Shown in pieces: positions 22,692-32,502 of a stretch of DNA of 64,000 bases; position 1 is the stretch's first letter; each line of letters opens with the position of its first letter. Both the position numbers and the translations under genes were made by a program. This stretch comes from Dorea longicatena (GTDB lineage: Bacteria > Bacillota > Clostridia > Lachnospirales > Lachnospiraceae): positions 575,501-639,500 of the forward strand of contig NZ_CP100126.1 in assembly GCF_024168045.1 (NCBI RefSeq), given 5' to 3'. Below the pieces are notes generated by a model. The model did no database searches and was not told where the DNA came from. It was given only the letters and a program-made list of their open reading frames with translations.

Positions 22692-23258
22692 ATGACATTA
22701 GAAGAAGTAAGAAATGAAATTGATGAAATAGATACAAATATGAAGCCACTGTTTTTAAGAAGAATGAAATGTGGAAAACATGTTGCAGAAGTAAAAGGAC
22801 AGAACGGAGGAGATGTATTTGTTCTCGAAAGAGAACTTGAAATCATTGGAAAAAGAGCCATGGATGTAGATCCGGAGATCCAGGAAGAATATAAAACATT
22901 CCTGAGACACTTAATGAGTCTTTGCAGAAAATATGAATATGAATTATTACCAGAGATGCAGGAAAAAGTTATAACGGCAGCTTTGACGGCAGCAGGACTG
23001 ACAGCTGAGACTGAACATACACAGGTAAAGATTGGATTTACCTGCCCAAAAGAGACAAGTGATCTGAACCTGTTCGTGAACATGACAAAGTTAAATGGAA
23101 TCCAGATTGATGCTATGAATCTGATGACAGAAAATGGGAATCAGAAAGTAACTATGACATTGGATGGTAAGATCACGGATGCGGGAATGCGGTGCTTGTT
23201 GTGTCAGATAGGGAAAGAGGCAGAGGAGTTCCGGATTTTAGAATTGTTTGGGATTTAA
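22692..23258 (+). CDS. Chorismate mutase with C-terminal regulatory-like domain
   Basis: 188 residues. The N-terminal approximately 90 residues are an AroQ-class chorismate mutase (LEEVRNEIDEIDTNMKPLFLRR, HVAEVKGQNGGDVFVLERE, SLCRKYEYELL), converting chorismate to prephenate for Phe/Tyr synthesis. Residues about 105-188 form a second domain with strand-like segments resembling an ACT-type sensor; that is inference. No prephenate dehydratase or dehydrogenase is fused or adjacent. The last two codons and stop (GGG ATT TAA) coincide with the start of a palindromic repeat remnant, so the natural C-terminus may have been altered. Confidence 0.82.
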   Translation: MTLEEVRNEIDEIDTNMKPLFLRRMKCGKHVAEVKGQNGGDVFVLERELEIIGKRAMDVDPEIQEEYKTFLRHLMSLCRKYEYELLPEMQEKVITAALTAAGLTAETEHTQVKIGFTCPKETSDLNLFVNMTKLNGIQIDAMNLMTENGNQKVTMTLDGKITDAGMRCLLCQIGKEAEEFRILELFGI

Positions 23259-23327
23259 TTTATTAACATCCGCAGCCAGTCACGAGAATTGAAGGAAACA
23301 ATAGATAAGGATTATTGTGAATGTGGA
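23250..23327 (+). repeat. Truncated copy of long palindromic repeat family (copy 1)
   Basis: GGGATTTAATTTATTAAC begins the element. The 23 bases at 23263-23285 are identical to 31899-31921 in copy 3. The box GTGAATGTGGAATGC (23309-23323) corresponds to GTGAATGTGAAATGC there. Only the left arm remains; the apical box and right arm are absent. Confidence 0.75.
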
Positions 23328-23590
23328 ATGCCAATAGAAAACAAAAGTATAAATGTATTTCGCGCAAGCAGAAACAGGAAAAAACATCCCGTAACAATCA
23401 ATGTTTCGACATGATTTACGCATTTACGAATAAATAAATTCACTATGATTATGCATACATTCACGAGCATGAAAAGTTCCAATATGCCGAGTACCGGCAA
23501 GCTGTACAGTTGAAATATCTCCATCAGTATAGTTATACAGATGGAGATAATAAGAGCAAACCACAAATAGTACTTTTGTTTTTTGGTCAT
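23312..23590 (-). CDS. Small membrane protein, unknown
   Basis: 92 residues with about three membrane segments (YYLWFALIISICITILMEI, LGILELFMLVNVCIIIVNLF, LIVTGCFFLFLLARNTFILL). A GAGG site precedes the ATG at 23590. Its last six residues (GIPHSQ) are encoded by the truncated repeat copy, so the end of the gene was probably reshaped by that element. Function not recognised. Confidence 0.5.
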   Translation of the reverse strand: MTKKQKYYLWFALIISICITILMEIFQLYSLPVLGILELFMLVNVCIIIVNLFIRKCVNHVETLIVTGCFFLFLLARNTFILLFSIGIPHSQ

Positions 23591-28462: not shown

Positions 28463-29896
28463 ATGGCAAAACAATATGAGACAGTCATTGGACTTGAGGT
28501 CCATGTAGAGCTTGCAACAAAGACGAAGATCTTCTGCGGATGCAGCACTGCATTCGGAGGAGCACCGAATACACATACATGCCCGGTTTGTACCGGTATG
28601 CCTGGATCACTTCCGGTATTAAATAAACAAGTTGTAGAATATGCAATGGGAATCGGCCTTGCAACACATTGCGATATTACAAGAGTGTGCAAATTCGACC
28701 GTAAGAACTATTTTTATCCGGATAACCCGCAGAACTACCAGATTTCACAGCTTTATCAGCCAATCGCCAGAAACGGCTATGTGGAGATTGCAGTAGGAGA
28801 TACAAAGAAAAAAGTCCGTATCCATGAAATGCATATGGAGGAAGATGCCGGAAAGCTGGTACATGATGAATGGGATGACACATCTCTGGTAGACTTTAAC
28901 CGAAGCGGTGTGCCGCTTGTAGAGATCGTATCCGAGCCGGATATGCGTTCATCGGAAGAAGTCATTGCATATCTGGAGAAATTAAGAACGATTATCCAGT
29001 ATCTGGGAGCATCTGATTGTAAGCTCCAGGAAGGTTCGATGAGAGCGGATGTCAACTTATCCGTAAGAGAAGTGGGAACCCAGGAGTTCGGAACCAGAAC
29101 AGAGATGAAGAACCTGAACTCATTCAAGGCAATCGCAAGAGCCATTGAAGGAGAGAGAGAACGTCAGATCGAACTCATTGAAGAGGGAAAATCCGTTATC
29201 CAGGAGACGAGACGATGGGATGACAATAAAGAATCATCTCATGCCATGCGTTCCAAAGAAGATGCTCAGGATTATCGTTATTTCCCGGAACCGGATCTTG
29301 TACCAATCGTGATCGATGATGAGTGGATCGAAAAGATCAAAGAAAAACAGCCGGAATTCCGCGATGAAAAACTGGAACGTTATAAAAAAGAATTCGATAT
29401 CCCGCAGTATGATGCAGAAATACTCACAGAATCCAAACACATGGCGGATATCTTTGAAGAGACGACGGCAATCTGTGGGAAACCGAAGAAAGTATCCAAC
29501 TGGCTGATGGTAGAAACCATGCGTCTGTTAAAAGAACACAGCATGGAACCGGAAGATATCAGCTTCTCACCGGCTAATCTTGCAAAACTGATCGGGCTTA
29601 CAGAGGACGGAACCATTAACAGTTCCGTTGCAAAAGAAGTATTCGAACAGGTATTTGAAAAGAATGTAGATCCGGAAAGTTACGTAGAAGAGCATGGATT
29701 AAAGACAGTCAATGATGAAGGTGCACTGGAAGAAGTGTTAAAAGAAGTCATTGCAAAGAATCCAAAAGCAATCGCCGATTACAAAGGCGGCAAAGAAAAA
29801 GCACTCGGCGCATTGGTCGGACAGACTATGAAAGCCATGAAAGGAAAGGCAAATCCCGGAATGGTGAATGAGAAATTGCGGGAGATGCTAAATTAA
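28463..29896 (+). CDS. gatB: Asp/Glu-tRNA amidotransferase subunit B
   Basis: 477 residues. The catalytic cradle shows ETVIGLEVHVELAT, ATKTKIFCGC, TCPVCTGMPGSLPVLN (zinc cysteines) and HEMHMEEDAGKLVHD, and the C-terminal YqeY-like tRNA-binding domain ends GKANPGMVNEKLREML. It phosphorylates the Asp or Glu on mischarged tRNA and amidates it. Ribosome binding site AGGAGGA within the gatA end. A palindromic repeat starts four bases after the stop codon. Confidence 0.97.
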   Translation: MAKQYETVIGLEVHVELATKTKIFCGCSTAFGGAPNTHTCPVCTGMPGSLPVLNKQVVEYAMGIGLATHCDITRVCKFDRKNYFYPDNPQNYQISQLYQPIARNGYVEIAVGDTKKKVRIHEMHMEEDAGKLVHDEWDDTSLVDFNRSGVPLVEIVSEPDMRSSEEVIAYLEKLRTIIQYLGASDCKLQEGSMRADVNLSVREVGTQEFGTRTEMKNLNSFKAIARAIEGERERQIELIEEGKSVIQETRRWDDNKESSHAMRSKEDAQDYRYFPEPDLVPIVIDDEWIEKIKEKQPEFRDEKLERYKKEFDIPQYDAEILTESKHMADIFEETTAICGKPKKVSNWLMVETMRLLKEHSMEPEDISFSPANLAKLIGLTEDGTINSSVAKEVFEQVFEKNVDPESYVEEHGLKTVNDEGALEEVLKEVIAKNPKAIADYKGGKEKALGALVGQTMKAMKGKANPGMVNEKLREMLN

Positions 29897-29899
29897 ATT

Positions 29900-30178
29900 G
29901 GGATTTAATTCAGGAAGGCTTTGGATACCCGAACCGGAATAAAGCTTGAAAAGGCGTTCCTGCTCAGGTTCCATCGGCGGGTCAATTCTAAAGGGGCAAA
30001 ATTCTGCTAAAAGCAGGCTTTCAAAATTTGAAACTCGGCATACGCCTCAGACAGTCAAATTTTGAAAACCTAACGCAGAATTTTACCCCTTAAGAATTAC
30101 CAACGCCTCTTTCACATTCACTGGAACGCCTTTCCAAGTTTTATTCCGTGTGTATCAAATGCCTTACGAATGAAACCT
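29900..30178 (-). repeat. Long palindromic repeat, copy 2 (between gatB and IS110)
   Basis: The outer helix pairs 29936-29960 with 30123-30147 (25 positions, one mismatch and one wobble). A second helix pairs 29984-30007 with 30075-30098, and a third pairs 30020-30032 with 30055-30067. Boxes on the minus strand are GTGAATGTGAAA (30110-30121), TGAGGCGTATGCCGAGT (30033-30049) and TGGAACCTGAGC (29963-29974), the same as in copy 3 although the arms are unrelated. The plus-strand end starts GGGATTTAATT. Confidence 0.8.
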
Positions 30179-30295
30179 GCTAAGAAAAGTCAATAATTAT
30201 TTTTATCTTTTTTATTTTCTGTCACAAAATATATTTGCGTACCACAAATAGACTGTCTGATTGGCAGTCTAAAAAATTATTTATTTTATATAAGA

Positions 30296-31498
30296 TTATA
30301 TATTTTTATATAGTTCGGTTACTCGAGCATAATAAATGCGTAAAAACTTATTTAATCCGGCTATCTTTGCTGATTTTTTACTTTTACCTTCTGATTCCTT
30401 TTTTACAACATATCGGTAAACCGGATCTTCTGGTCTGGAATGCATTTTTAAACTTCTCATTGTTTCGTATCCTACTTTGCGCAATGATGCTGAACCACGT
30501 TTCGAGATTTTCCTATTACAACCTACAAATTGACCAGATTCATACGGTGGTGGATCAATTCCTGCGAATGCAACCAATGCCTTCCCGTTGCGAAATCTGC
30601 GAACATCTCCTATTTCTGCAATTAACTTTGGGGCTAATGTATTTCCCACTCCACCCATTTCTCTTACAACCGAATATTCTGGCAAAGTTTTGGCTATTTC
30701 CTGCATCCGTGATAAAATTAGACCAAGGGTTGCATCAACTTCCTTGAGCACCCGAACTGCTTCAGTCACCAGCATTTTGATCGATGAGGTTTCTGAAGGT
30801 AATGTGGGAATACTTTCCTGAGCCAGGGTGTATATAACTTTGGCTTTTTCCTGGCTTGGGACGTATTTCTTTTCTTTTGCCCAAAGTATATACTCTTCAG
30901 TAAATTCCTGTTCAGACATAGATGTTATTACATCATAATGCCAAAAACGTTCCACAAAATCACTTCTTTTATCTTTCCGATTTGTTTCATTCCAACTTGC
31001 AAGAAGATTCTTTATTCCAGGCATGGTCAAATCTAAAAGATGGGTCAATTCAGCGAGAGATAAAAGATGAAGCTTCATATAATGCCGATATTGCTGTCCA
31101 AGCAACTTCAACTCTTCATAAATCTCTCCAGAAGTTTGAAATTCTTTCATTTTAAACCAATGATCAATTCCATAATTAGCAATGATACGGGAATCAATCT
31201 TGTCGGTTTTGGCTTTTCGCAGACTTTCGTTACGATAACTTTTCATAAGATACGGATTAATTACAGAAACAAAAAATCCTTTTTCCTGTAAATATGTAAG
31301 AACTGGAAGATGATAAATTCCGGTTGCTTCCATAACGATTTTGACTTCATCATTTAGTCTGAAAAGCATGGAAGATAATTCGCTTAAATCCTTTTGGGTA
31401 TGGGTAATATTGAAAGGCTTACTAACAATCTCTCCATATGGTTTCAAAATACATACTGTACTTTTCCCTTTTGATACATCAATTCCTACGCTGATCAT
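30296..31498 (-). CDS. IS110-family transposase (DEDD recombinase)
   Basis: 400 residues. The RuvC-like DEDD domain shows MISVGIDVSKGKSTVCI (first Asp), VMEATGIYHLPVL (Glu) and AKTDKIDSRIIANYG (last two Asp). After a helical linker, the C-terminal Transposase_20 domain shows MGGVGNTLAPKLIAEIGD, FAGIDPPPYESG and KRGSASLRKVGY with the conserved serine. The protein looks full length and intact. IS110 recombinases use a bridge RNA from the non-coding end to pair donor and target DNA. Ribosome binding site AAGGAG before the ATG at 31498. Confidence 0.93.
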   Translation of the reverse strand: MISVGIDVSKGKSTVCILKPYGEIVSKPFNITHTQKDLSELSSMLFRLNDEVKIVMEATGIYHLPVLTYLQEKGFFVSVINPYLMKSYRNESLRKAKTDKIDSRIIANYGIDHWFKMKEFQTSGEIYEELKLLGQQYRHYMKLHLLSLAELTHLLDLTMPGIKNLLASWNETNRKDKRSDFVERFWHYDVITSMSEQEFTEEYILWAKEKKYVPSQEKAKVIYTLAQESIPTLPSETSSIKMLVTEAVRVLKEVDATLGLILSRMQEIAKTLPEYSVVREMGGVGNTLAPKLIAEIGDVRRFRNGKALVAFAGIDPPPYESGQFVGCNRKISKRGSASLRKVGYETMRSLKMHSRPEDPVYRYVVKKESEGKSKKSAKIAGLNKFLRIYYARVTELYKNI

Positions 31499-31540
31499 AA
31501 TATACTCCTTTTCTTTTTATAGAATTGCAGTTGTTTATCC

Positions 31541-31721
31541 CATCTACACTTATTATGATTCAGTTTAGTTCGTTACGCGAAAGCTCCTGCGAGTTTCAAC
31601 CTGCTTAAATGAATGTTTATAATAAGGGGATGGCTGACGGTTTCATTCACGGATGTGAAAATCCTAATGGCAATATGTCATACCAACTACTTCCCTTATT
31701 ATAATAAAATAAGTGTAGATG
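31541..31721 (-). ncRNA. Candidate IS110 bridge RNA region
   Basis: Upstream of the transposase, nested perfect inverted repeats enclose about 180 bases: 14 bp (31541-31554 with 31708-31721) and, inside, 12 bp (31617-31628 with 31693-31704). Each leaves a sizeable loop, the two-loop plan expected for a bridge RNA; the position upstream of the gene and the approximate length also fit the IS621 example. The 5' arm can alternatively pair with 31735-31753. The assignment is inference. Confidence 0.4.
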
Positions 31722-31884
31722 TTAGAGTTAATTACTCTCTAACAACTACACTTTTATGGTACTAAATGGCAATTGCGTAACGGTTGTGACAACGGAAGGT
31801 TACAGTAATCAGCTGTCATTAGCGGATTTTCAAGGCTTTTGACAAGATTGTGTACCGTAGTGGACTACACCAGGTTATAGTTCC

Positions 31885-32173
31885 GGGTATTTCATTTCTT
31901 AACATCCGCAGCCAGTCACGACTTGAAGAAAACAGTATAAAGTGGTTCTGGTGAATGTGAAATGCTCTTAGAAAAAGTTAGAGAGTCAGAATCTCCGTTA
32001 AAGGAACGAAGCGAACGTGTTTGAGGCGAATGCCGAGTTTGAGCGTAGTTCCTTTGCTTTTAGGAGATTCTGGCTCTCTTAGTTTTTCTTAGAGCGTGGA
32101 ACCTGAACCAGAACCACTTTATACTGTTTTCTTCAAGGATCGAGAGGCCAACTACGTTAATAAATAAAATCCC
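31885..32173 (+). repeat. Long palindromic repeat, copy 3 (upstream of the cadmium locus)
   Basis: Arms 31922-31951 and 32108-32137 are perfect reverse complements over 30 bases. A second helix pairs 31964-31996 with 32063-32095 (about 30 of 33), and a third pairs 32000-32007 with 32048-32055. Boxes: GTGAATGTGAAA (31951-31962), TGAGGCGAATGCCGAGTTT (32022-32040, containing a GGC-GAAT-GCC mini-hairpin) and GTGGAACCTGAACC (32096-32109). The ends resemble GGGTATTTCATTTCTTAAC and its inverted copy. Confidence 0.85.
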
Positions 32174-32184
32174 AAAAAAATGTA

Positions 32185-32242
32185 TTGACATTATGCAGCG
32201 CAGTGCTATAATTAAAACAAACATATGAATAACTGTTCATAT
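32185..32242 (+). promoter_or_regulatory. Promoter and ArsR-type operator of the cadmium/zinc locus
   Basis: TTGACA (32185-32190) and TATAAT (32207-32212) have a 16-base spacer. Directly downstream, ATATGAA-TAACTG-TTCATAT (32223-32242) is the imperfect-free palindrome typical of ArsR/SmtB repressors such as CadC and CzrA. The repressor is presumably the ArsR gene at 34404. Confidence 0.85.
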
Positions 32243-32283
32243 ATTCAAATAATCAAATAAAAACAGGAAAGGAAGTATTTATC

Positions 32284-32502
32284 ATGAAAAAAACTTATAA
32301 AATCGACGTAGACTGCGCAAACTGTGCAAATAAGATGGAGCAGGCAGCGAAGAACACTGACGGAGTAAAGGATGCAACTGTGAATTTTATGATGTTAAAG
32401 ATGATCGTAGAATTTGAAGAAGGCGCAGATCCTAAGAAGGTAATGAAAGAGGTACAGAAGAACTGTAAAGTAGTAGAAGATGATTGTGAGATATTTCTGT
32501 AA
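32284..32502 (+). CDS. Heavy-metal-associated (HMA) domain protein
   Basis: 72 residues forming one HMA ferredoxin-like fold. The metal site is DCANCANKMEQ (CxxC); the second half carries KNCKVVEDDCEIF with further cysteine and acidic residues. It probably delivers divalent metal to the ATPase whose gene begins 15 bases later, and takes the place of the N-terminal HMA domain that this ATPase lacks. AGGAAAGGAAG precedes the ATG. Confidence 0.9.
   Translation: MKKTYKIDVDCANCANKMEQAAKNTDGVKDATVNFMMLKMIVEFEEGADPKKVMKEVQKNCKVVEDDCEIFL

Follow-up and report, generated by a model that had tools for sequence, protein, structure and literature searches.

Long palindromic hairpins with a near-constant apex and freely varying arms: a widespread bacterial repeat family that is probably mobile

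Results

Two hairpins separated by an IS110 insertion

The window (the whole stretch of Dorea longicatena DNA analysed here, 64,000 nucleotides) contains two long hairpins, A on the minus strand (29898..30171) and B on the plus strand (31885..32175). Each carries three boxes in the same order, with 0 mismatches at all six places: in A, on the minus strand, box 3 at 29962..29973, the apical box 2 (TGAGGCGTATGCCGAGT, exact) at 30033..30049 and box 1 at 30110..30121; in B, on the plus strand, box 1 at 31951..31962, the apical box 2 at 32022..32038 and box 3 at 32097..32108. A first-pass annotation, made from the letters alone, had placed two hairpins with this order of boxes at 29900-30178 (minus) and 31885-32173 (plus), and they are indeed there; comparison with homologues extends the ends it gave by 2 bp (TT..AA). 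The minimum free energies are -128.5 kcal/mol for A and -136.6 kcal/mol for B (z = -11.3 and -14.3), far beyond shuffled sequence, with 0 of 200 shuffles equalling either. The predicted folds also agree with the annotation in putting box 2, with its GGC-N4-GCC mini-hairpin, at the apex and box 1 opposite box 3; the mini-hairpin reads GCC-N4-GGC in L010A, L011A and L012A, at loci of the related genome G001. Helix 1 of B reads 30/30 paired, the figure that had been claimed for one copy, and in A 92% of 26 positions of helix 1 and 92% of 24 positions of helix 2 are paired. The box 1/box 3 region of A forms symmetric internal loops with two GA/GA steps (fold read by eye).

Box 2 occurs in the window only twice at up to 3 mismatches, exactly both times (mean of 100 shuffles, 0.31; two or more in 4 of them). 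Box 1 alone, at 2 mismatches, gave 16 matches against 11.5 expected, a number reached by 17 of 100 shuffles, and box 3 alone gave 29 against 15.3 (0 of 100 shuffles). The distinctive thing is the ordered set of boxes, rather than box 1 or box 3 singly. A truncated B-type relic comprising the TIR, outer arm and box 1 lies at about 23249..23332 on the plus strand (90% identity over 92 nt to L010 8237-8326); at the corresponding place in G001 stands a composite of about 650 bp.

The annotation had treated 29900-32173 as a span with two copies of a family. The two copies stand, but it had missed that they form a composite, A(-)..B(+), split by an IS110-family insertion (about 30172..31763, minus strand) with a transposase gene of 400 aa (30296..31498, minus; NF033542, E 2.6e-57). 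A runs from its outer TIR (TTGGGATTTAATTC..) to its inner TIR, where it is cut after ..GAAT; the remainder of that inner TIR (AAATGGCAA) and the A/B spacer follow at 31764..31884 (plus), and B ends ..AAATAAAATCCCAA. The uninterrupted homologue of A is L012 6471-6748 in G001, the nearest comparison genome (50% of sampled 31-mers in common with the window), where A(-) and B(+) stand back to back without IS110. Since the window has GAAT, IS110 and AAATGGCAA where L012 reads GAATTAAATGGCAA, the IS110 sits in A's inner inverted end. The arrangement A(-)-IS110-B(+) is also present at L010 and L011 of G001, over 2.2 kb at 99.3% identity, and the A-IS110 junction recurs at L294. All differences between L010 and L011 fall in the hairpins, the spacer and the outer flanks and none in the IS110 part, as expected if IS110 recently landed in two hairpin pairs separately, each time at the same site. 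IS110 was thus seen at one site of A-type inner inverted ends in the window and at three places in G001 (L010, L011 and L294); judged from these junctions, the recurrence suggests that IS110 is guided to a mobile hairpin as its target.

The family in related genomes

A covariance model built from 10 copies (R1) had matches in 7 of 145 relatives. A second model, R2, built from 30 matches, found 35 matches in G001, 84 in G018, 7 in G013, 2 in G048 and 13 in G049, three of the last being the opposite strand of hairpins already listed. At E 1e-6, under strict filters and with at most six candidates scored per genome, matches were present in 49/397 genomes and 45/334 genera of a sample from the same taxonomic family (probably Lachnospiraceae) and in 11/398 genomes of a phylum sample. 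The search that the first-pass annotation had proposed therefore reveals a family much larger than its two copies. From the matches 42 loci were chosen, six of them too short for simple excision; by eye, the apical motif, or something close to it, is present in all 36 printed loci. Elements are about 180-435 nt long. The printed G018 copies have outer arms of ~60-70 bp that are mostly unlike between copies, purine-rich on the left and still near-perfectly paired; some have arm segments in common (L050 with L052, L035 with L053). GTAG stands beside many of these copies and is not a general feature.

In G001, 20 of the 35 matches make up 10 close pairs, each (-)(+), so that the commonest unit is two back-to-back hairpins, A(-)B(+). 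By eye, a near-identical composite occupies two G001 sites and halves of it three more. The composites L290-L293 and L297 contain a further inverted repeat between A and B (GTAACC..GGTTAC, CGGAAA..TTTCCG-like; by eye), perhaps a third hairpin. R2 had no match in G002 or G003, which belong to the genus of G001, and reading downstream of gatB in both genomes revealed no hairpin; we count this patchiness in favour of a mobile element.

A search beside gatB yielded no clean empty site corresponding to the window pair, since in G001, G002 and G003 gatB is followed by a different gene from the one in the window. The sites beside gatB and copZ are occupied in both the window and G001, with different arm types. 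When window positions 29896-32284 are compared with L077 and L297, the gatB and copZ junctions are swapped, with a hairpin composite at each junction; the simplest reading of these alignments, and a likely one, is recombination between dispersed composites.

A common apex in many phyla

The apical box is near-constant (TGTYTGAGC-N-GCGAGTT). A scan of species genomes with the pattern CTGTYTGAGCN{2,8}GCGAGTTK returned at least 119 stretches, and among the matches listed are Bacteroidota, Pseudomonadota, Nitrospirota, Gastranaerophilales, Fusobacteriota, Selenomonas, Anaerococcus and Lachnospiraceae. The annotation had named Lachnospiraceae as the range to search; many matches do lie there, but the family extends far outside, which the annotation had not seen. 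A strict long-arm score was passed by 26 of 85 apices. A complementary run of at least 6 adjoins the apex in 93 of 114 cases, compared with 4.6% when flanks of different loci were paired; some of the remaining 21 are probably chance matches. Among 33 genomes selected for already having a match, a looser pattern hit 600 times and its reversal 10 times, with at least two in 31/33 genomes and at least ten in 19/33. Pattern matches numbered 143 in Flammeovirga sp. OC4 (two of them read as sequence), 45 in Cellulophaga sp. BC115SP, 32 in Flavobacterium sufflavum and 21 in Leptotrichia sp. oral taxon 879.

Viral contigs held five matches, of which four fold as hairpins and one does not. No copies of A were found by blastn against plasmid and phage sequences; a Proteobacterial element matched three plasmid records over about 30% of the query. 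L002 in G046 was rejected as a family member, as on inspection it has no long hairpin with this apex. At several Pseudomonadota, Bacteroidota and Nitrospirota loci (L134, L140, L173, L183, L187 and L200) a second, GGTTACTTTTCTT..AAGAAAAGTGAC-like hairpin follows the first; a literature search for its letters found none.

Ends and target site duplications

In G418, a sister genome of the same genus, one element of G049 is matched 12 times at near full length, at 81-94% identity with the arms included (nine at 89-94%); seven of the 12 aligned end to end. Flanking gene segments of the two genomes are 81, 82 and 88% identical. The ends GTWACNGTT..AACNGTWAC are recognisable at 22 of 29 apices in G049 and G418, where elements mostly measure 287-290 bp (commonest 289, range 267-323). 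An 8-bp target site duplication (TSD) matching at 7/8 or better flanks 16 of the 22 copies, exactly in 10, against 0 of 462 control pairings. Two further copies match at 6/8 (control at 6 or better, 4/462), and the scoring finds no match in the other four, L015 among them with an offset of one base. Transposition is therefore demonstrated for one subfamily, that of G049 and G418, and the annotation's suggestion of a MITE-like mobile unit with inverted ends gains support from these terminal inverted repeats and duplications; for the remaining subfamilies we infer movement.

The ends of the G018 and G001 copies differ from those of G049, and no convincing TSD was found in either genome. An automated TSD search flagged 16/21 copies in G418, 3/7 in G049, 8/20 in G018, 3/23 in G001, 5/10 in G865, 2/10 in G855, 3/10 in G875 and 1/12 in G860; flags outside G049 and G418 were not counted, many being self-complementary arm stretches from a run made without a control. 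A few of them, such as L344 and L345, may be real.

Candidate movers

We found no autonomous relative sharing the hairpins' ends. Clustering of 1043 neighbouring ORFs at 215 loci yielded common families and repeat-read ORFs only, and no gene family always beside hairpins. Candidate genes were counted in 22 carriers and in 22 genomes without a hairpin match under strict filters. RAYT was rejected as a general mover: NF047646 was detected in 20/44 genomes at E 1e-5 and was absent from G001, with its 35 hairpin matches. Its curated cut-off was passed by only two genomes, both without hairpin matches, all matching carriers scoring below it. Rpn (TIGR01784) was likewise rejected, being present in 18/22 carriers and 12/22 non-carriers and missing in carriers G013, G176, G276 and G344. 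The same verdict applies to IS66 (PF03050) as a general mover (10/22 carriers, 6/22 non-carriers, none in G001). IS66 is present in both G049 and G418, and one G049 copy could be resolved, with GTAAGCG ends and an 8-bp TSD. Its ends, to go by the letters, appear to be of the same class as those of the G049 hairpins and yet different ends. An IS66-like DDE transposase is a possible mover in G049 and G418 only. Replication-strand bias followed no common rule (negative skew in 6/7 for G049, positive in 19/24 for G018 and 6/12 for G001).

How the arms stay complementary

In 30 aligned rows, fitted to the model and mixing subfamilies, both partners vary in 57 of 58 model pairs, in 663 cells compared with 194 in shuffles, a value beyond all 500 of them. 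The outcome that the annotation had named as speaking against it, only these two copies and no covariation, is thus far from what was observed. Wobble pairs are rare and the covariation is almost purely Watson-Crick. Isolated mismatches in 205 copies comprised 68 G.T and 55 A.C (p 0.28); G.T was ahead in four of five groups and A.C in one (7 G.T vs 14 A.C). Inner stem cells of two cleaner alignments, with helix ends and one fixed column removed, gave G.T to A.C ratios of 23 vs 15 and 26 vs 16 (sum 49 vs 31). Pairwise tallies of single changes, in which the same change is counted repeatedly and wobble-fixed columns are kept, placed G.U ahead of A.C in all but one of eight divergence bins (e.g. 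117 vs 63 and 218 vs 79). Two counts were set aside: a strand count (G.U 42, A.C 37) from a badly registered alignment, and a count of 62 vs 16 because 34 of the 62 fell in two apical columns. Arms kept as RNA would tolerate G.U and purge A.C; the finding that G.T does not significantly exceed A.C therefore points to DNA. The mild G.T excess in some counts may leave room for pairing at the RNA level.

Where the aligned copies come from one genome group, double changes overtake single ones once divergence reaches about 8-10%; at about 4% the single ones still lead (10 against 4 double), so correction is not immediate. With gap columns excluded, unpaired columns are more conserved than paired ones (0.948 vs 0.855 in 18 copies, 0.891 vs 0.835 in 21 copies). 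We conclude that the arms are probably kept complementary mainly as DNA, whether through correction or because selection favours a DNA hairpin, and that the boxes are what selection preserves. From covariation the annotation had argued for a selected RNA or single-stranded DNA structure. The family is indeed structured, its loops constant and its arms free; the RNA half of the claim fits poorly with the rarity of wobble pairs and the 68 G.T against 55 A.C.

Discussion

We consider it fairly probable, at about two in three, that the hairpins belong to one very widespread family of mobile DNA elements, of a non-autonomous, fold-back (MITE-like) type. Each copy would be a long inverted repeat able to leave the duplex as a DNA hairpin, in which the apical box and further stem boxes are conserved and the intervening stems mainly need only to pair. 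Copies would spread by transposition, presumably in trans, by an enzyme whose existence is deduced. If the arms meet repeatedly as a hairpin or cruciform, single mismatches would be corrected from arm to arm, so that arms could drift fast and yet remain Watson-Crick complementary; the larger conserved boxes, being required for recognition, would remain unpaired. In the window, an IS110 has landed within an A(-)B(+) unit. Counting against this explanation, the cross-phylum apex is more than a transposon end alone would require.

A selected structured RNA is the most serious alternative and in our view an unlikely one: a transcript of the hairpin would bind a protein through its apical and internal boxes (tandem G.A, perhaps kink-turn-like), and compensatory mutation would make the arms covary. 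This alternative would account for the very low folding energies, for covariation exceeding 500 of 500 shuffles and for the mild G.U excess of some counts. The tandem G.A flanking the apex, which by eye we take to resemble RNA motifs, would also suit it, as would the G001 copies, in 10 of 11 of which the 3' end faces a convergent gene, 121-145 nt from the apex. That orientation is not kept in G018 (8/21), however, and rare wobble pairs, with isolated A.C about as frequent as G.T, are not what arms paired as RNA should display. Still less probable is a pure mutational process, by which functionless palindromes are homogenised by template switching and spread by homologous recombination alone: the Watson-Crick change is concerted and the gatB and copZ junctions bear signs of recombination between composites, but such homogenising should wipe out the unpaired boxes too, whereas unpaired columns are the more conserved, and it does not explain exact ends with 8-bp TSDs. 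Finally, it is barely credible that A, IS110 and B are a single transposon with the hairpins as its ends and the IS110 transposase as its mover, a layout identical over 2.2 kb at two G001 sites (99.3% identity) notwithstanding, given that IS110 is missing from L012 and from composites L290-L293, that its sequence is identical in L010 and L011 despite their differing hairpins, and that single hairpins in G418 move with TSDs of their own; we regard L012 and these TSD-bearing single hairpins as refuting it. The hairpins are not confined to the company of IS110 (L012, L290-L293, the G049 and G418 copies).

The fold-back element reading could be taken further. Tentatively, and with the odds against it, one ancient hairpin signal, TGTYTGAGC-N-GCGAGTT, might be read as a single-stranded DNA hairpin by a factor in many phyla, with unrelated transposon ends attached in each lineage and repair rewriting the arms at each folding; the heritable unit would then be the tip and the ability to pair, and no sequence.

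Among known systems, MITEs derived from DDE insertion sequences such as IS66 are similarly short, with inverted ends and, as in G049 and G418, 8-bp TSDs. The hairpin ends are GTWACNGTT, however, and not the IS66 TIR that we saw; moreover, the hairpin is the whole element, its apex is common to copies with other ends and its arms are unconserved. Integron attC sites are palindromes with free arms and fixed unpaired positions, as in the hairpins, which differ in being much longer and in having an apical signature. ERIC/RU-1, BOX, RUP and similar repeats are imperfect intergenic palindromes, often with no known mover; they occur in few taxa with conserved arm sequence, whereas the hairpin arms vary and the taxa span phyla. 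REP sequences are likewise many-copy intergenic palindromes thought to be mobilised in trans by RAYT, and according to PMC3733652 they measure 20-40 bp and mostly carry a GTAG or CGTC tag. At about 180-435 nt, and with no RAYT match in G001, the hairpins differ from them, and neither a tagged palindrome of 20-40 bp nor an accompanying RAYT gene characterises the family.

The annotation recognised no named family, and neither did we. Rfam matched only tRNAs in the window and nothing above gathering score in the elements, where the sub-threshold hits were to miRNA-precursor models (mir-266, MIR1858). No published description was found in the open-access literature, a range outside which most subscription papers fall; the portions of PMC2267715, PMC3733652, PMC6006769 and PMC4853749 available to us do not describe the family. 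Short non-autonomous palindromic repeats are an already known kind; a cross-phylum tip with freely replaced arms is apparently undescribed. A high-copy repeat with a conserved tip and replaceable arms in many phyla would be a large unnamed share of bacterial intergenic DNA. If the arms are corrected as DNA, such repeats can mislead covariation-based RNA discovery, because covariation then comes without wobble, and in them genomes would carry a natural record of cruciforms or hairpins having formed. The family also looks like a site of rearrangement and of IS110 landing. At L012 6471-6483 the TIR of the element gives the neighbouring ORF its stop codon (..KIGI, then TAA within GGGATTTAA).
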